The notes beneath the pieces were generated by a model. The model searched no databases. It was not told the origin of the DNA and was given only the letters and a program-made list of their open reading frames with translations. From contig JAQGMG010000013.1 of the NCBI GenBank assembly GCA_028292485.1, positions 124,001 through 188,000 on the forward strand: a DNA stretch of 64,000 bases, given 5' to 3'. Source of the stretch: Rhodocyclales bacterium. GTDB taxonomy: Bacteria; Pseudomonadota; Gammaproteobacteria; Burkholderiales; Rhodocyclaceae. Positions within the stretch are counted from its first letter, which is position 1. Each line of letters opens with the position of its first letter. Positions 4,017 through 17,866 of this stretch are shown in pieces. A program made the translations under genes and the position numbers.

Positions 4017-4571
4017 ATGACACTGGCAAACACGAATCAACGGCAGCGCGCAATGCGTGGCGACAGCGAGGGCGCTTCACAGCCTGTGCCTGTCACGCAG
4101 GCTGCCACTAGCGGCGTCGTTATCAAGCGTACTTTCAATGCGGTACCCGAACTCGTTTTCAAGGCCTGGAGCGATCCGCTGCAAGTTGCACAGTGGTTCG
4201 GGCCGTGCGAAGTGAACATGGCGGTGCGCGAACTCGACGTGCGGCCCGGTGGCACCTTGCGCATGGAAGGGCATTGCGACGCAGGCAGCAATGTGCGCAT
4301 TGAAGGGCAATACCGCGAGGTCGAAGAGCCGGACTGGATTGTTTACGCCGATGCCTGTTTCGTTGGCGAGGCATTGATCTGCGAAACGCTCGCGACGGTC
4401 ACTTTTCATGAGATCGAGGGCGACGGCAAGACGCGCGTAACCATTCACTGCGAGCCCTTGCTTGGCTTCGACGCTTTCGCACAACGTCGCTGGCTCGAAG
4501 GGTGGTCCGCCAGTCTGGATCGTCTGGCAAAGCATCTGGCAGCACCGTTACCAGAACAGATCTGTACCTGA
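4017..4571 (+). CDS. SRPBCC/AHSA1 domain protein 1
   Basis: A 184-residue START-like protein with an extra N-terminal tail of about 30 residues before the domain begins at VVIKRTFNAVPELVFKAW. The helix-grip hallmarks ...DPLQVAQWFGP, VRPGGTLRMEG, and a C-terminal helix (GWSASLDRLAKHL) are present. Proteins of this family bind hydrophobic small molecules in a deep cavity; no reaction is known for most. It directly follows arsR, the standard arsR-AHSA1 pair, so its ligand probably relates to the signal sensed by the regulator. Confidence 0.85.
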   Translation: MTLANTNQRQRAMRGDSEGASQPVPVTQAATSGVVIKRTFNAVPELVFKAWSDPLQVAQWFGPCEVNMAVRELDVRPGGTLRMEGHCDAGSNVRIEGQYREVEEPDWIVYADACFVGEALICETLATVTFHEIEGDGKTRVTIHCEPLLGFDAFAQRRWLEGWSASLDRLAKHLAAPLPEQICT

Positions 4572-4610
4572 AACCGCAGTCCCGACACTATTCACGATGC
4601 AGGAGGATTT

Positions 4611-4970
4611 ATGAGCTACGTTGATGGATTCGTATTGCCCGTGCCCAGGAAAAATCTCGCCGCCTATCGCCGCATGGCAAAGAAGGCTGGTGCAGTGTGG
4701 ATGGAGTACGGTGCGCTTTCGTACGTCGAATGTGCAGGTGACGACGTGCCAATGGGCAAGCTCACGTCGTTCCCGCAGAGTGTCAAGCTCAAGGCGGACG
4801 AGGTCGTGGTGTTTTCGTGGATCGTCTACAAGTCGCGCAAGCATCGTGACAGCGTGAACAAGAAAGTCATGGCCGATCCGCGCCTGGCTTCGATGATGGA
4901 CCTTGCGTCATTGCCGTTCGACGCTAAACGCATGATTTTTGGTGGCTTCAAGAAGCTCATCGAGTTTTAA
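4611..4970 (+). CDS. DUF1428 family protein (YbaA-like)
   Basis: A 119-residue cytoplasmic protein beginning MSYVDGFVLPVP, with VFSWIVYKSRKHRDSVN and a C-terminal RMIFGGFKKLIEF typical of DUF1428. The fold is a ferredoxin-like alpha/beta barrel related to dimeric stress-response domains; no activity is established. AGGAGG sits directly upstream, and it lies 39 bases behind AHSA1 protein 1. Such genes recur in ArsR/AHSA1/VOC clusters, which supports its being part of the same unit. Confidence 0.85.
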   Translation: MSYVDGFVLPVPRKNLAAYRRMAKKAGAVWMEYGALSYVECAGDDVPMGKLTSFPQSVKLKADEVVVFSWIVYKSRKHRDSVNKKVMADPRLASMMDLASLPFDAKRMIFGGFKKLIEF

Positions 4971-5034
4971 TCATACTTTTCGCAAAAATGACAATGTCAC
5001 ATATGCCGGCCCCTGCACTACAAGCGAATCGATC

Positions 5035-5688
5035 ATGACAAAACTACGTGTAGAGAGCTTCACCCTTTCCCTCGATGGATTCGGCGCTGGTCCGGACCAG
5101 AATCTCGAAAATCCCCTCGGCGTGGGCGGCAAGGGTCTACATACCTGGGCGTGGCCGACGACGACTTTCCAGAAGATGTTTGGCAATGGCACGGGCACGA
5201 CCGGCGTCGACGAAGATTTCGCCTCACGCGGATTTCGCAACATCGGCGCATGGATCATGGGCCGCAACATGTTCGGACCCGTCCGCGGCCCTTGGCCGGA
5301 CATGAGCTGGAAAGGCTGGTGGGGCGACAACCCGCCGTATCACACGCAAGTCTTCGTGCTGACCCACCATGCACGCGAGCCCATCACGATGGAGGGCGGC
5401 ACCACCTTCCACTTTGTAACCGACGGCATCGTCAGCGCCTTGCAGCGCGCCAGGGAAGCGGCGAATGGCCAGGATGTGCGTGTTGGCGGCGGCGTGGCGA
5501 CGATCCGGGAATATCTGCGCGCTGGTTTGATCGACGAGATGCATCTGGCCATCTCCCCCATCCTGCTGGGTTCGGGCGAGCACCTGCTGTCCGGCATCGA
5601 CCTGCCATCGCTGGGTTACCAATGCGTCGAGCATGTGAGCTCGCCGAACGCAACCCATGTGCTCATCAAGAAAATTGTCCAGCAATAA
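5035..5688 (+). CDS. Dihydrofolate reductase family protein (RibD C-terminal-like)
   Basis: A 217-residue protein with the RibD_C/DHFR-like Rossmann layout: SFTLSLDGFGAGP at the N terminus, AWIMGRNMFGPV, VFVLTHHAREP, the nucleotide-loop region DVRVGGGVATIREYLRAGLIDE and LGSGEHLL. These enzymes bind NADPH and reduce pterin-like or other substrates, but many cluster members are uncharacterised and this one is unlikely to be the housekeeping FolA. The start at 5035 matches family N termini; no strong ribosome binding site precedes it. It lies between DUF1428 and an AHSA1 gene in the array. Confidence 0.85.
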   Translation: MTKLRVESFTLSLDGFGAGPDQNLENPLGVGGKGLHTWAWPTTTFQKMFGNGTGTTGVDEDFASRGFRNIGAWIMGRNMFGPVRGPWPDMSWKGWWGDNPPYHTQVFVLTHHAREPITMEGGTTFHFVTDGIVSALQRAREAANGQDVRVGGGVATIREYLRAGLIDEMHLAISPILLGSGEHLLSGIDLPSLGYQCVEHVSSPNATHVLIKKIVQQ

Positions 5689-5721
5689 TCTCGATAACAA
5701 CCATCCATCACGGAGAGAAAT

Positions 5722-6249
5722 ATGACATCAGGAAGTACGGCGAACGATGCGGCGGGCGAGCTGTTCGAAATATCGCGCGTTCTCGACGCACCGCGCGATC
5801 GCGTTTGGCAGGCCTTCGCCACGGCTGAAGCGCTGGCTCAGTGGTGGGGGCCCGTCGGTTTCACCATCGAAGTGAAGAAACTGAAATTTCGCGCTGGCGG
5901 CATTTTCCACTACTGCATGAAGTCGCCCATGGGCGACATGTGGGGCCGCTTCATCTATCGCGAGATCGCAGCGCCAGAGCGCATCGTCTTCATCAACTCC
6001 TTTTCCGATCCGCAGGGTGAGATCACGCGTGCGCCTTTCCCCGGCCTTGACCTTTGGCCGCTGGAAGTGCTCAACACGATGACTCTGGTCGAGAAGGACG
6101 GCAAGACGACGCTCGACCTGCGTGGTGGCCCGATCAACGCTACGGCCGAAGAGCTTGCGGTGTTCCGCGCGGGCTTCGACAGCATGCGTCAGGGCTTCGG
6201 CGGGACGTGGGATCAGCTAGCCGCCTACCTCTCACGGGGTACGCAATAA
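5722..6249 (+). CDS. SRPBCC/AHSA1 domain protein 2
   Basis: A 175-residue AHSA1-type protein: LFEISRVLDAPRDRVWQAF, AQWWGPVGFTIEV, FRAGGIFHYCM, YREIAAPERIVF and a C-terminal helix (GTWDQLAAYL). The WWGP motif and the PER(I/L)V turn are family signatures. GGAGAGAA precedes the ATG. It probably forms a ligand-binding cavity like the other five SRPBCC proteins here, from which it differs enough to suggest separate ligands or an old duplication. Confidence 0.88.
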   Translation: MTSGSTANDAAGELFEISRVLDAPRDRVWQAFATAEALAQWWGPVGFTIEVKKLKFRAGGIFHYCMKSPMGDMWGRFIYREIAAPERIVFINSFSDPQGEITRAPFPGLDLWPLEVLNTMTLVEKDGKTTLDLRGGPINATAEELAVFRAGFDSMRQGFGGTWDQLAAYLSRGTQ

Positions 6250-6414
6250 GAGGGCTGCACACGTGTCTGGCTGCGTTGGCTCGCTCGCCGTGCTTGAGCA
6301 CTGCTCTGCGCGAGCCGCCTTGCCAGTCACGCGCTCGCTCCTCTTCTTGCGCACCCCTCTCGGTGAGTTGATAAACGAGAAAAGCATTTTTGATTTGGCT
6401 CGCGGAGGTGACGC
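6250..6414. other. 165-base gap with no visible gene
   Basis: This is the longest internal gap in the first half of the array. I could not find the missing N-terminal half of an arsR gene here in any frame, although the next ORF encodes only an ArsR C-terminal helix. It may be the site of a deletion or insertion. Confidence 0.4.
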
Positions 6415-6579
6415 ATGAACTACATCGCCGAGTGGTTGGACAGCTATCGTCGATTCTGGGAGTTGCGCATGGAACGGCTCGAGGAGTACCTGCGCAAGCT
6501 GCAGGACAAAGACAGGGAAACATCGAGCGGAAAACCGCCGGGCACACGCAAGGTAGAGAACGATGACGGCAAGCACTGA
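6415..6579 (+). CDS. Micro-ORF: ArsR C-terminal dimerisation helix without a DNA-binding domain
   Basis: A 54-codon ORF starting ATG 6415, with GGAGGTGA (6404-6411) at ideal spacing and an in-frame TGA just before the start. Its first half, WLDSYRRFWELRMERLEEYL, closely matches the C-terminal helix of the ArsR protein at 3629 (WVEQYRQFWEQRLDRLEEYL). The winged-helix domain is absent and the last 25 residues are polar. It overlaps the next AHSA1 gene by 17 bases. Either it is a remnant of a duplicated arsR-AHSA1 pair kept for translational coupling, or it makes a small protein that could dimerise with ArsR. Confidence 0.65.
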   Translation: MNYIAEWLDSYRRFWELRMERLEEYLRKLQDKDRETSSGKPPGTRKVENDDGKH

Positions 6580-7045
6580 ACCGAGCCGAGAACTACGTAT
6601 CACACGCATATTCGATGCACCGCGCGAGATGGTATTCGAAGTGTGGACCATGCCCGAGCATCAGGTGCACTGGATGGGCCCGCAAGACTTCACGGTGCCG
6701 TCGTGCGAGATCGACTTTCGCGAAGGTGGCAGCTATCGCACCTGCATCGTCGAGCCAACCGGGGTCGAGTACTGGATGCGTGGCGTGTATCGCGAGATCG
6801 TGGTGCCGGAGAAGCTGGTGTTCAGCTTCGCCTGGGAGGAAGAGGGCGAGCGCGGCATGGAGAACATCGTCACGCTGCAGTTCTTTGATGAGGGTGGCAA
6901 GACACGCTTCGAATTCCTGCAGACACCGTTCCAGTCCGCCGCGGAACGCGATGGACATGACGGCGGCTGGACGCAGTGCTTCGATCGACTGGCCGCGTAT
7001 CTCGAGACCGGCATGATCGCCGCCCAGGCAGGCGAGAAGATCTGA
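6563..7045 (+). CDS. SRPBCC/AHSA1 domain protein 3
   Basis: A 160-residue AHSA1-type protein (RITRIFDAPREMVFEVW, HWMGPQDFTVPSCEIDFREG, YREIVVPEKLVFSF, GWTQCFDRLAAYLE). The usual WWGP is WMGP. Its start lies inside the ArsR-tail micro-ORF, so translation is probably coupled. The arrangement repeats the arsR-AHSA1 order at 3629-4571, which suggests the array grew by duplication of that pair. Confidence 0.87.
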   Translation: MTASTEPSRELRITRIFDAPREMVFEVWTMPEHQVHWMGPQDFTVPSCEIDFREGGSYRTCIVEPTGVEYWMRGVYREIVVPEKLVFSFAWEEEGERGMENIVTLQFFDEGGKTRFEFLQTPFQSAAERDGHDGGWTQCFDRLAAYLETGMIAAQAGEKI

Positions 7046-7082
7046 GTGCCGTCTTGACACTGAACAACCGAAGGGAAAGAGT

Positions 7083-7469
7083 ATGCAAATAAGATTGGCA
7101 AGCCTGTTGGTCGATGACCAGGACAAGGCCCTGAACTTCTACACCGAAGTGCTCGGCTTCGCGAAGGACAAGGACATTCCCATGGGGCAGTTTCGCTGGC
7201 TGACAGTCTCTGCGCCCGAAGGCGCGGAAGGTGTCGAGCTGGTGCTGGAACCGATGGCTTTTCCGCCGGCAAGGACTTATCAGAAAGCATTGTTCGACGC
7301 AGGTATCCCTGCGACGGCATTCATCACTACCGATATTCATGCCGAATATCTGCGCCTGAAGGACGCCGGCGTGCACTTCCGCAGCGCACCGCAAGCCATG
7401 GGGCCGATTACCACCGTGATCTTCGAAGACACCTGCGGCAATCTCATCAATCTCGTTCAGCCTGCCTGA
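7083..7469 (+). CDS. VOC (glyoxalase/bleomycin resistance fold) protein 1
   Basis: A 128-residue protein made of two beta-alpha-beta-beta-beta modules: IRLASLLVDDQDKALNFYTEVLGF at the start and ITTVIFEDTCGNLINLVQPA at the end, the latter carrying the usual glutamate-type metal ligand region. VOC proteins bind or transform small electrophiles, antibiotics or aromatic diols; the substrate here is unknown. A good ribosome binding site (AAGGGAAAG) precedes the start and the next gene follows after 12 bases. Confidence 0.88.
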   Translation: MQIRLASLLVDDQDKALNFYTEVLGFAKDKDIPMGQFRWLTVSAPEGAEGVELVLEPMAFPPARTYQKALFDAGIPATAFITTDIHAEYLRLKDAGVHFRSAPQAMGPITTVIFEDTCGNLINLVQPA

Positions 7470-13371: not shown

Positions 13372-15471
13372 ATGAAAACCCAAACCAGCCAGACACTTAC
13401 CGTACTTATCGTTGCTTCGTTGATCGCGCTGGGCGCCAACGCGGCACTGGCCTTCGTGGCCTTGGGAATGGGCTCGGGCGGCATGGCCGGGATGATTGCT
13501 CCGTGGGCTGCGCTGCTCTCGGGCGGGCTGGTTATTTGTGTCGCTTTGTTTCTGCGGCGCAAGATTCTCCAGCCGCTGAATCTCCTCAAAGAGAGCATCG
13601 CCCGCGCTGCAAACAACCATGATTTCTCGCCTTACCCGGTAATGGCGGGTGATGACGAAATCAGTGCGACCTCGCGCAACTACGCACAACTACTCGAATT
13701 CATTGGCACTTCCGTTGCAGATGTACGGCGCTGTGGCGAGCAATTGGCCTCGCTTTCCGAAGAGGTTGACGTCGCTACCCGCAAGATATCGCGCAACTCG
13801 CGCCTGCAGAGCGAAGCGACGTCCAACATGGCGGCCGCTGTGGAGGAGATGACCGTGAGCATCTCGATGGTCGGTGAGCAGGCCGAGCAGGCCAGCAGCC
13901 ATGCGCGGGAGTCATCCTCCATCGCCAGCAAAGGCGCCACCAATATCCTGAATACCGTTGAAGGCATCAATACCATTTCCCGCCAGGTTGGCGCGGCCAC
14001 CAAGCACATCCGCAATCTGCGCGCAGATTGCGACAGCATCACCTTGATGGCTGCCACTATCCGTGACATCGCCGACCAGACCAATCTGCTGGCGCTGAAC
14101 GCTGCCATTGAGGCGGCGCGCGCAGGAGAGCAGGGTCGCGGCTTCGCCGTCGTGGCCGATGAAGTGCGCAAGCTGGCCGAGCGCACCGCCCGCTCCACGC
14201 ATGAAATCAGCTCGCTGGTCGAGCGTATGCAGGATAGCGCTCGCGTTGCGGTCGACAGCATGTCGGAGACCGAGCAAACCGTTGGCCTCGGCGTGGGTAA
14301 CGCAGAGAAGGCGGGCGAGTCGATACAACAGATCCAGCGTGGTTCCGCTTCCGCTGCCGATGCGGTGACCGAAATCTCCTCGGCCATCCAGGAGCAACGT
14401 CAGGCCAGCACCGATGTCGCCAAGAACATCGAGCAGGTCGCCCAGATGAGCGAACAGAATTCGCATGCTGCCGAGGCCTCGGCCGAAGCAATCGGGCGGC
14501 TATCGGAAAGCAGCCGGCAGATCAGCGCCATCCTGCGCCGCTTCCGCACCGGCAACGAGAGCGAAAAGATCATCCTGCGCCTGGCCGACATCCATGCCGA
14601 GGACCACCCCGCCGTACGCGCGCTGCGCGAAATGGGCGAGGCCCTGCAATCACGCAGCAAGGGCCGCATCGAATTGAAGATATCTGCTGGCGGCTCCCTG
14701 GGCACTGCCGTGGAAGTCGCCAAGCAGGTGCGCACCGGTGGCATCGACATGATGCGCATCAACATGTCTTCGCTGAACAAGGACTGCCCGATCACCATCG
14801 TGCCGGCCCTGCCATTCCTGTTCCGGTCAGTAGACCATATGCATAAGGCCATGGATGGCAGCACCGGCGACACGATCCTCGAATCCTGCGGCCTGTCGGG
14901 CATGACCGGTCTGGCGTTCTACGACAGTGGCGCCCGCTCCATCTATGCCGATAAACCGATGCGCACACCGGCCGACACGCGCAATCTCAAACTACGTGTC
15001 ATGGACAGCGAAATGTGGCTGGCCGTTGCCAAGGCCATGGGCGCAGTGCCCACACCAACCCTGATGGACGAAATCGTCGCCAGTTTCAAGATGGGTCTGA
15101 TCGAAGCGGCTGAAAACAACATTCCAAGCTTCGACAGCTACAAGCACCACAGCGTTTTCAAATACTTCTCGTTGACCGAGCACGCCATGGTTCCGGAAGT
15201 CATCGTCTTCTCGAAACAGCGCTGGGATTCGCTGGCAGAAAGCGACCAGCAGCTCATACGCGAAGTGGCGAAGGAGTCCGTGCCGCAGATGCGCAAGTAC
15301 TGGCAGGAATACGAAGTGCTCTCACGCAAACGCGCCACCGCAGCCGGCACGATCTTCGTCTCCGATATCGACAAACGCGCCTTCCAGAGCGCCATGAAGC
15401 CGGTCTACGACCGATTCGTTACCACGTCTGAACAGAAAGCCCTGCTGCGCGCGATTCAGGACATTCAGTAA
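13372..15471 (+). CDS. Methyl-accepting chemotaxis protein fused to a cytoplasmic TRAP-type DctP solute-binding domain
   Basis: A 699-residue fusion. Residues 9-31 and 42-61 are membrane helices joined by a loop of only about ten residues, so there is no periplasmic sensor. A HAMP-like linker (about 63-115) leads to an MCP signalling domain with the canonical tip, [20 protein letters not shown] within residues 232-272. After about residue 400 the protein continues without a stop into a complete TRAP solute-binding domain: [43 protein letters not shown] (the family's ligand-binding Arg) and [19 protein letters not shown] binding proteins are normally periplasmic; here the domain has no signal peptide and should be cytoplasmic. 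It may sense an intracellular organic acid. Confidence 0.9.
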
Positions 15472-15625: not shown

Positions 15626-16108
15626 TCATCGTGTCTGCCGTGATGGTGGGTTCTGGCTACCGGCTCGTTTTACCATGGTGGGATTGTCGTCCATACCCAA
15701 GGAAAATTCGCTCTGCATTTCATAGCCGAGTTTTTTCCAGAACGGCACGGCATCTCGCGCAACTTGTGCAACAAATTTCTGCCGTTCATGTTCCAGAGCC
15801 ATGGTCTCGGCCCGCTCGATCAATGCACGGCCAAAACCTAGTCGCTGTTTGTCCAATACCACGGCCAAACGTCGGAAAGCCGCGGTCCGGGAGTCGTCAA
15901 GTAAATCGAGTCGTACTGTCGCCACCGCAACCTTGTCGGACAGAAGCAGCAGGGGCAGGTTCGAAGGGAGATAGTCGTCCGGGTGCGAGCTGTCATAGTC
16001 AAAACGTCCGCGCGCTTCCCACAAAACGGTACGGCGAATTTGGTGATACTCAGTCCAATGCTCCCCGTTCCGGACTATGACAAGTGATAGCGACGCGTTC
16101 AAGACCAT
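15626..16108 (-). CDS. GNAT family N-acetyltransferase
   Basis: A 160-residue acetyl-CoA-dependent N-acetyltransferase. The acetyl-CoA-binding segment is LAVVLDKQRLGFGRALIERAE (Q/R-x-x-G-x-G/A-like: QRLGFG), followed by FVAQVARDAVPFWKKLGYEM, the usual beta5-alpha4-beta6 end of the GNAT fold. The N terminus (EYHQIRRTVLWEARG) fits a subgroup acting on small molecules. GGAG lies 8 bases before the start. Substrate unknown. Confidence 0.85.
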   Translation of the reverse strand: MVLNASLSLVIVRNGEHWTEYHQIRRTVLWEARGRFDYDSSHPDDYLPSNLPLLLLSDKVAVATVRLDLLDDSRTAAFRRLAVVLDKQRLGFGRALIERAETMALEHERQKFVAQVARDAVPFWKKLGYEMQSEFSLGMDDNPTMVKRAGSQNPPSRQTR

Positions 16109-16194: not shown

Positions 16195-17682
16195 CTATCG
16201 GCCAAATACCTTGTCGAGATAAGCAAACGTGGGCAGCATCTGGGTCATCATGAACGCGGGATCTTCATGACCCGCGCCGGGTACGATCACTAGTGTTGAC
16301 CGTGCGCCGGCTTTGCTCAAAGCCTCATGCAGCCGCAGCGCCTGGTAGGGTGAAACCAAGGAGTCTTTATCGCCGTTGGCAATGAGAAACGGTGGCAAAT
16401 TTTTCGCGGTCGATGCATGACCACGGATGTTGTACATGCCATCGGCAAGACTGTCCAGGCCCTCCAAAGCTCCGTACCAAACAACCACTGCTTGAACCTC
16501 ACTCGACACGGCTGCGTTCCCGAGAGAAGGATCGTCAAGGGCCGTGACCTGACCGCCGGTCACGCCGAGCATTGCAGCGATGTACCCACCTGCGGAATTG
16601 CCCCAGACAGCGAACTGCTTTGCATCAAGGTGATATTTATCGGCGTTGGCGCGAAGAAAGCGCACTGCGGCTTTTGCATCCTGGAGAGCGAGCGGGGCCG
16701 CTGCCGCTGGGGGAGCACCCAGACGGTAATTCAGACTCACGACCGCATAGCCTTTGGCAGTCAATGCCGCTACATCGGGAACTTGAATTTGATAGGGCCC
16801 GCTGCGACCGGTGGGTGTGGGGGCTGGGCCGAAGCTCCGGCGAGGCATCGAGCGCTTGTCGCCGATATCGAAGCCGCCGCCATGGATCCAGATGACCAAG
16901 GGCGCTGTATTTTTGGTTGACGCGGGTAGATACAGATCGAGTTTCTGTAAAGGCGATTTGTCCGCGTAAGCCAGATCAGGAAAACTCGCTTGAATCGACT
17001 GTAGCGCGAACCTCTGCTCGGGCGAGACATCGGTGTAGACCAGATTGGCCAGTGGCAAAGCCGGAGCTGCAAGTGCTCTATTGCGAGCATCGACCCTACC
17101 CATCGTTTGAACGTCGTAGTTCTCTGGCGCCACTGCAATGGTGTCGATGTTGAAGGCGCCGTCGCCGCTACCGCCACCGAGGTTGTTCATCCGGATCGTG
17201 TGTTTGCCTTGAGTCAAGGTCACCAATGCCGGGTTGCCTTGTCGGTCCGGGACCACGATATTGGACCAGTCGTTCGTGTCCTTGGCCCAGCCGCCGGTTG
17301 GCACAAATACGATTTTTTCAAAGTCCGGACCGGGGGACTTGCCGTCGATAGTCAAATCGCGATAGACGTTCCAAGCGCGGCCAGCGGCGTAGCGGAAACC
17401 AAACTTGTAGTGCCCGGTCGCCGCAATATCCACTTCCCATTCCAGCCAGTGCCCCTTGTCATTCCATCCGATCAGAATGTCGCCGTTGGCGCCCATTCGA
17501 CCGCCTTGCGGCTTGACGGCGCCTCTGCCCTCCCTGACGAACGTGGTGGCTTGAAACACGCGGGGGCTGGCGTTCGATTGGGCCGTTATGGGTAGTGACG
17601 GTACTGAATCGGCCGCCGAAGCGACGGGCAAGGCCGTTGCGAGTCCTGCGATGATGAGAAAAATGACGAAGGCGTTTGTCAT
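16195..17682 (-). CDS. Secreted alpha/beta hydrolase with an N-terminal carbohydrate-binding-like domain
   Basis: A 495-residue exported esterase. A signal peptide (IFLIIAGLATALPVASA-A) is followed by a beta-sandwich of about 200 residues resembling CBM35/CBM6 modules (GWNDKGHWLEWEVDIAATGH, TLTQGKHTIRMNNLGGG, FNIDTIAVAP). The catalytic part has IWIHGGGFDIGD (oxyanion hole), WGNSAGGYIAA (nucleophile Ser), NGDKDSLV (acid) and GAGHED (His). This layout suits a polysaccharide or xylan-type esterase or a BD-FAE-like lipase. I chose ATG 17682 since GGGAG precedes it and a signal peptide follows; an upstream start would bury it. Confidence 0.85.
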   Translation of the reverse strand: MTNAFVIFLIIAGLATALPVASAADSVPSLPITAQSNASPRVFQATTFVREGRGAVKPQGGRMGANGDILIGWNDKGHWLEWEVDIAATGHYKFGFRYAAGRAWNVYRDLTIDGKSPGPDFEKIVFVPTGGWAKDTNDWSNIVVPDRQGNPALVTLTQGKHTIRMNNLGGGSGDGAFNIDTIAVAPENYDVQTMGRVDARNRALAAPALPLANLVYTDVSPEQRFALQSIQASFPDLAYADKSPLQKLDLYLPASTKNTAPLVIWIHGGGFDIGDKRSMPRRSFGPAPTPTGRSGPYQIQVPDVAALTAKGYAVVSLNYRLGAPPAAAAPLALQDAKAAVRFLRANADKYHLDAKQFAVWGNSAGGYIAAMLGVTGGQVTALDDPSLGNAAVSSEVQAVVVWYGALEGLDSLADGMYNIRGHASTAKNLPPFLIANGDKDSLVSPYQALRLHEALSKAGARSTLVIVPGAGHEDPAFMMTQMLPTFAYLDKVFGR

Positions 17683-17795
17683 GGTCGTCTCCCTTGTCAG
17701 TTGTCGTGACTTCGTAGTGGCGTGATGGATCGCTTGTCGTGAAAAATTGAGCTCCTGGTGTGGAGCTTTGCAAATCATGGAACCGCCATGTCTCT

Positions 17796-17866
17796 TCATC
17801 CCGGCGAAAGCCGGGATCCAGTATCACGCGTGCAAACTGGATTCCGGCCTTCGCCGGAATGACGGA
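17796..17866. repeat. Palindromic CCGGCGAAAGCCGG repeat
   Basis: TCATCCCGGCGAAAGCCGGG and a facing ATTCCGGCCTTCGCCGGAAT, joined by ATCCAGT...ACTGGAT, form a nested hairpin upstream of the esterase gene. It is a diverged relative of the cores in the MITE-like elements. Confidence 0.65.

Follow-up and report, generated by a model that had tools for sequence, protein, structure and literature searches.

The window analysed here, a stretch of 64,000 nucleotides from a Rhodocyclales bacterium, encodes what is on balance probably a chemoreceptor that is anchored in the membrane, senses with a TRAP solute-binding domain of the hexuronate type on the cytoplasmic side, and signals to CheA. This explanation is based on the domain order, the topology as read from the sequence, the clades formed by the fused domains, the absence of a periplasmic domain, the ligand residues and purifying selection, while we infer which ligand is bound, that the sensor is cytoplasmic, and how and in which direction the signal acts. 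The initial annotation had described one uninterrupted frame that joins two membrane helices, a HAMP-like linker, an MCP domain with the canonical tip and a full DctP domain, and the gene (P0001) is indeed open over 699 codons with the following layout:

13372..15471, + strand: chemoreceptor gene P0001, MCP with a C-terminal DctP domain, 699 aa (open frame, Pfam domains)
13402..13458, + strand: transmembrane helix 1, about residues 11-29 (hydropathy; helix 3-32 in the full-length AlphaFold2 model)
13495..13551, + strand: transmembrane helix 2, about residues 42-60 (hydropathy), followed by LRRK
13552..13710, + strand: HAMP-like linker, about residues 61-113 (region of the HAMP match in P0002 and L011)
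13657..14535, + strand: MCP signalling hairpin, helices 96-251 and 259-388 (Pfam, full-length AlphaFold2 model)
14536..14568, + strand: short linker between MCP helix and DctP domain, residues 389-399 (full-length AlphaFold2 model)
14569..15468, + strand: DctP (TRAP solute-binding) domain, residues 400-699 (Pfam, structure model, best match 4MHF/4MIJ)
14935..14937, + strand: Arg522, equivalent by spacing of the ligand-binding Arg150 of STM3169, kept in 16 of 16 fusions
14995..14997, + strand: Arg542, equivalent by spacing of the carboxylate-binding Arg170 of STM3169, kept in 16 of 16 fusions
15115..15117, + strand: Asn582, equivalent by spacing of the ligand-binding Asn210 of STM3169, present in 15 of 16 fusions and replaced by Gly in L029

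A Pfam scan at E 0.001 gives two families, MCPsignal (PF00015, residues 176-359, E 1.3e-43) and, C-terminal to it, DctP (PF03480, residues 405-682, E 2.2e-65), and no PAS domain was found at the same threshold. The 12-residue MCP tip is present, as are the two DctP motifs that had been pointed out, LKLRV with its Arg and NNIPSFDSY. The HAMP part is degenerate in P0001, where it scores above E 0.001, and clear in the paralogue P0002 (E 6.8e-9), with a weak match under the Pfam cut-off in the sister-species copy L011 (E 6.5e-5), which makes "HAMP-like" a fair description. L011 is the orthologue of P0001 and starts at the equivalent Met.

A sequencing error joining two genes around 14540-14590 had been named as what would undo the finding. 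The fusion is not an assembly error, because the same junction is shared by the paralogue P0002 (contig C31 of the same assembly, DctP part 57% identical to that of P0001), by the orthologue in the sister species (G001, DctP part 89% identical), which also has a second copy ending at a contig end, and by other species. The GC content by codon position shows no frame change across the MCP-DctP junction. An artefact or a decaying fusion has next to no chance of being the explanation, and we reject it: one copy in an insect-symbiont relative (L052) is interrupted and the copy in G543 has two in-frame TAG, but 16 copies are open, two of which run off a contig end, and dN/dS is about 0.1 over the whole frame. 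In L052 (about 4400-7400), from Candidatus Dactylopiibacterium carminicum END1, one stop lies at the MCP-DctP linker and another, together with a short repeat, within the DctP part, and this, like the TAG codons of the G543 copy on contig C23, looks like decay in a host-restricted lineage. A mobile or viral origin was also considered and rejected, as a scan of viral contigs gave no relative and a plasmid search no record covering 80% of the query in one place.

The fused DctP domain is under purifying selection. Between P0001 and its sister-species orthologue dN/dS is 0.097 for the whole gene, 0.067 for the MCP part and 0.092 for the DctP part; it is 0.211 for residues 1-75, a weaker constraint on the membrane part, and 0.445 for the 16-codon linker, with few changes. 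For the second copy the ratio is 0.007 for the compared MCP portion and 0.038 for the DctP part, and a pair of free solute-binding proteins gives 0.043. With dS at 0.67-1.23 outside the linker, these ratios are rough.

The fusion is a conserved and duplicated receptor family and not an isolated oddity. The set comprises 16 open copies, 14 of full length; nine of the genomes that contain them belong to the window's family and three to a gammaproteobacterial one. A full-length profile (E <= 1e-130) matched 15 of 395 family genomes, and nine of these hold open fusions (G000, G001, G012, G121, G140, G594, G620, G630 and G675), with two copies each in G000, G001, G121 and G594, one being cut by a contig end in G001 and in G594; the first two candidates per genome were scored, so that copy numbers are lower bounds. 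The remaining matched genomes are G543, with its interrupted copy, and five with MCP or SBP alone, and within these 395 genomes the fusions occur in three of 68 genera. Open full-length copies are found in Rhodocyclaceae bacterium UBA1310, Uliginosibacterium sp. 31-16, U. aquaticum and Propionivibrio limicola, in Proteobacteria bacterium CTSoil_126, where the last residues are divergent, and in Alteromonadaceae bacterium Bs31, which NCBI taxonomy places in the gammaproteobacteria. Some of the copies from named genomes are by identical translation the same genes as other loci (for example L053 = L031, L058 = L029). The fusion is present in three of 144 genomes of Bs31's family, Bs31 included. 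With the DctP domain alone as query (E <= 1e-80), 17 of 399 genomes of an order sample matched, with fusions in the window's own genome only, and no MCP motif was found in the 1.5 kb flanks of the 16 DctP loci from the other genomes of that sample. A seven-row full-length profile (E <= 1e-130) matched the own genome only in samples of the class (369 genomes) and the phylum (299). The order, class and phylum samples share genomes and are each a selection from a larger group, and the latter two missed Bs31's family; two candidates per genome were scored in the family, three in the class and phylum, five in the order and seven in Bs31's family, so absences are not strict, and the searches would miss any fusion in which the partner is another DctP subfamily or a different solute-binding fold.

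The full fusion with the lowest score against the profile (895.7 bits) is L143 of G675, the same place as G1410, the genome of L060, Propionivibrio dicarboxylicus, and in its genome ordinary MCPs are numerous and several free DctP proteins occur as well. Directly 3' of one fusion gene in Uliginosibacterium sp. 31-16, a gene of its own encodes a binding protein of the DctP family whose N-terminus looks like an export signal (L053:7081-8085), and the same arrangement is seen by eye in L052; a functional pairing of the fusion with the adjacent free protein is possible.

The phylogenetic analyses point to a common origin of the fusions. In a tree of 64 DctP domains, for which the 48 free rows were a hand-picked selection of loci, taking in part of the 80 from one search, and L163 (identical to L154) was left out, 16 of 16 fused domains form one clade with support 1.0. 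The clade sits among free binding proteins of the same lineage, but the parent node has support 0.0 and the exact sister is not fixed. Midpoint rooting of a tree of the MCP part likewise places 12 of 12 full-length fusions in one clade (support 0.86, and 0.98 once trimmed); this tree excludes L013 and L151, which are cut by contig ends, and the later-found L196 and L197. The three copies from Bs31's family are nested within the other fusions, with support 0.848 and 0.843 for the surrounding clades and 0.153 for one inner node, and such a nesting fits horizontal transfer, so that the fusion family has probably moved between lineages.

The two membrane helices are separated by 5-43 residues in 14 of 14 full-length fusions, as compared to 125-192 in 28 of 29 non-fused MCP rows, the exception being L190, an Aer-like PAS receptor. 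The 43 residues of L137 include a helix before the start codon and the 192 of L146 a helix probably before the start; the 29 rows are 31 loci minus L156 and L183, which have short frames, and L157 and L175 are one gene. The distance from helix 2 to the tip is equal in fused and non-fused MCPs, 183-190 residues, and of four non-fused MCPs that were domain-tested three have a periplasmic 4HB_MCP_1 domain and the fourth a PAS domain. The short gap in the fusions against the four-helix domain of three of the four non-fused receptors suggests that a periplasmic sensor was lost and a cytoplasmic one gained. The simplest account, judged by the sequences, is that in one lineage the periplasmic sensor apparently disappeared and a DctP domain was added after the signalling hairpin, and either step may have come first.

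TRAP solute-binding proteins normally work in the periplasm, and their usual location is the argument for a C-terminal domain that has been placed there by an inverted topology or a third helix and senses an external acid. We find this very improbable. Hydropathy gives two helices spaced by 12 residues, in line with the roughly ten that had been estimated, and no third membrane helix past residue 70, where the highest 19-residue mean is 1.02; a third helix was thus rejected. There is no hydrophobic segment or signal peptide before the DctP domain, which comes after the MCP helix, and helix 2 is followed by Arg/Lys residues. Contact with CheA and CheW requires the MCP hairpin to be in the cytoplasm, and as no further helix follows it, the DctP domain should be cytoplasmic as well.

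The model of the DctP domain (residues 397-699) has a pLDDT of 94.5 and matches 4MHF/4MIJ best (TM 0.94-0.95, Z 42.5-42.9, 48% identity), and a sequence search with the domain also has 4MHF/4MIJ as its best match (E 1.4e-90). The matched solved entries besides 4MHF and 4N91 are presumably of the hexuronate type too. In PMC7660916, Bpro_3107 (4MHF) is a binder of D-glucuronate and D-galacturonate, and Arg150, Arg170 and Asn210 are the ligand contacts in STM3169, with Arg170 binding the carboxylate. The own genome has a free DctP relative (contig C28, 54% identical), which is closest to 4MHF (E 3.8e-120) and is accompanied by a uronate-dehydrogenase-like gene (3RFT, E 5.9e-65), an SMP-30 family gene and DctM; an IlvD/EDD-type dehydratase, also nearby but on the other strand, scores above the cut-off of an L-arabinonate dehydratase model. 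The predicted ligand, which the initial annotation gave as an intracellular carboxylate, can by sequence and fold be narrowed to hexuronates, e.g. D-glucuronate or D-galacturonate. It is plausible that these lineages respond to uronates derived from plant polymers.

Eleven DctP positions are typical of 14 fusions and rare in 43 free relatives (among them 412 Y to H, 414 T to A, 470-471 and 566 G to D), and the ligand specificity may therefore have shifted. The stretch GEVYT of the free proteins has become DEI[IV]A-like in most fusions and NEL in the gammaproteobacterial ones, and P0001 has Asp at position 545, which in most aligned relatives is occupied by Gln or Pro. In the three copies from Bs31's family (L057, L196 and L197) KMGMNEL replaces TPMxMDEI after the second ligand Arg, which perhaps means another ligand preference. 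No uronate genes were recognised beside the fusion genes, mostly by eye from lists of open reading frames. It is these differences, fixed between fused and free domains, together with such neighbourhoods, that speak for a cytoplasmic C-terminal sensor of some other small acid, either a downstream intermediate (an aldarate or a keto-deoxy sugar acid) or another carboxylate. We hold this to be rather unlikely, although it deserves consideration, since the Arg/Arg/Asn triad is intact in 15 of 16 fusions, the nearest solved and the nearest free relatives are of the hexuronate type, and some of the altered positions may be surface sites that were freed from docking to the TRAP permease. Sensor folds can lose their ligands, and the Asn is lost in L029, so the domain might also be ligand-free, a structural or protein-interaction module of the receptor array; a pocket triad that is invariant or nearly so, and purifying selection like that on the free solute-binding protein, make this improbable.

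The surroundings of the fusion gene agree with what had been said about the transporter, as neither the window nor the 20 kb upstream contains a match at E <= 1 when the DctM of contig C28 is the tblastn query. Downstream of the fusion gene and on the opposite strand there is a GNAT acetyltransferase gene (window 15626-16108, - strand). A further gene, at 16195-17799 on the - strand, encodes a protein that combines a CBM6 module with a BD-FAE esterase domain, whose N-terminus by eye resembles a signal peptide, and which hints at the use of plant cell walls.

The own genome has a single CheA, as found by PF02895, which adjoins a CheY-type receiver, CheZ and a CheW-receiver protein, and the CheY- and CheZ-type genes beside it point to flagellar chemotaxis. 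Six MCPs were found with PF00015, and two of the six are of the DctP fusion type. A stand-alone response regulator gene (L131:6479-7024) lies about 1.2 kb upstream of the second fusion, with another open reading frame in between. The full-length AlphaFold2 model is of modest confidence (pLDDT 67, pTM 0.52), carries little information on coupling and served for helix boundaries only. We hypothesize that the receptor would work as follows. The two short-looped helices would be an anchor only, and cytosolic D-glucuronate, D-galacturonate or a close sugar acid would close the two-lobed DctP domain; the closure would pull, through the short linker, on the C-terminal helix of the MCP hairpin and so change the activity of CheA, and the cell would track the amount of uronate that it has already taken up. 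The proposal that a former periplasmic module now is cytoplasmic and feeds CheA is supported at the level of sequence, and fits the topology, the clades, the absence of the periplasmic domain, the ligand residues and the selection.

In comparison with known systems, the receptors resemble those of the Aer type, of which L190 looks like one, in having a membrane hairpin nearly without a periplasmic part and a cytoplasmic sensor. Aer senses redox through an N-terminal PAS-FAD, that is, its PAS domain lies before the helix hairpin, whereas no PAS domain was found in P0001. The DctP domain is like Bpro_3107 (4MHF/4MIJ) in fold, with 48% identity and the same Arg/Arg/Asn triad, but proteins of that type are exported and serve a permease, while the domain in P0001 is part of an MCP, comes without its own signal peptide and has no permease found nearby. 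The 4HB_MCP receptors L145, L176 and L177 have related MCP parts (L177 52% and L176 48% identical) and the same distance from helix 2 to the tip (184-190), but unlike the fusions they carry a periplasmic four-helix domain and nothing past the signalling part. Periplasmic solute-binding proteins can stimulate chemoreceptors in trans, according to PMC9602780, and here too a solute-binding protein feeds chemotaxis, although there it docks from the outside and here it is in cis and predicted to be cytoplasmic. Chemoreceptors with a C-terminal ligand-binding domain are described by Ortega and Krell 2020 (PMC7390727) as a poorly characterised subfamily with at least 17 types of such domains in Pfam, CZB being the most populated. 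The sensor follows the MCP signalling domain in that class as it does here, where it is a full TRAP solute-binding fold, and DctP may be among the 17 types. Cytosolic and metabolism-linked chemoreceptors are already known, as PMC10613068 and PMC10579534 make clear. A literature search, which covered few subscription papers, gave no description of an MCP with a C-terminal DctP domain, nor of a TRAP fold on the cytoplasmic end of an MCP or a swap from a periplasmic sensor. C-terminal sensors on chemoreceptors are thus known before, and what would be new, as far as this search goes, is the TRAP solute-binding fold in that place and its exchange for a periplasmic sensor.

The usual explanation of metabolism-dependent taxis is redox or PAS sensing, and to our knowledge the ligands of chemoreceptors that sense intracellularly are poorly known. 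In this receptor family a small-molecule ligand can be predicted, the pocket is defined, and the evolutionary path, with one sensor apparently lost and another gained, can be read; together these make it directly testable whether a cell steers by its internal pool of one particular nutrient. It is conceivable, and to us almost an even question, that a binding protein of nutrient uptake was transferred to the other side of the membrane and joined in cis to a chemoreceptor which had given up its own periplasmic sensor, and that a uronate-binding fold is used in one cell on both faces of the inner membrane, importing on the outside and reporting the pool to CheA on the inside, in which case taxis would follow uptake and not the outside concentration. 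Swimming in these bacteria may then be steered by a plant-derived sugar acid that has already been imported.
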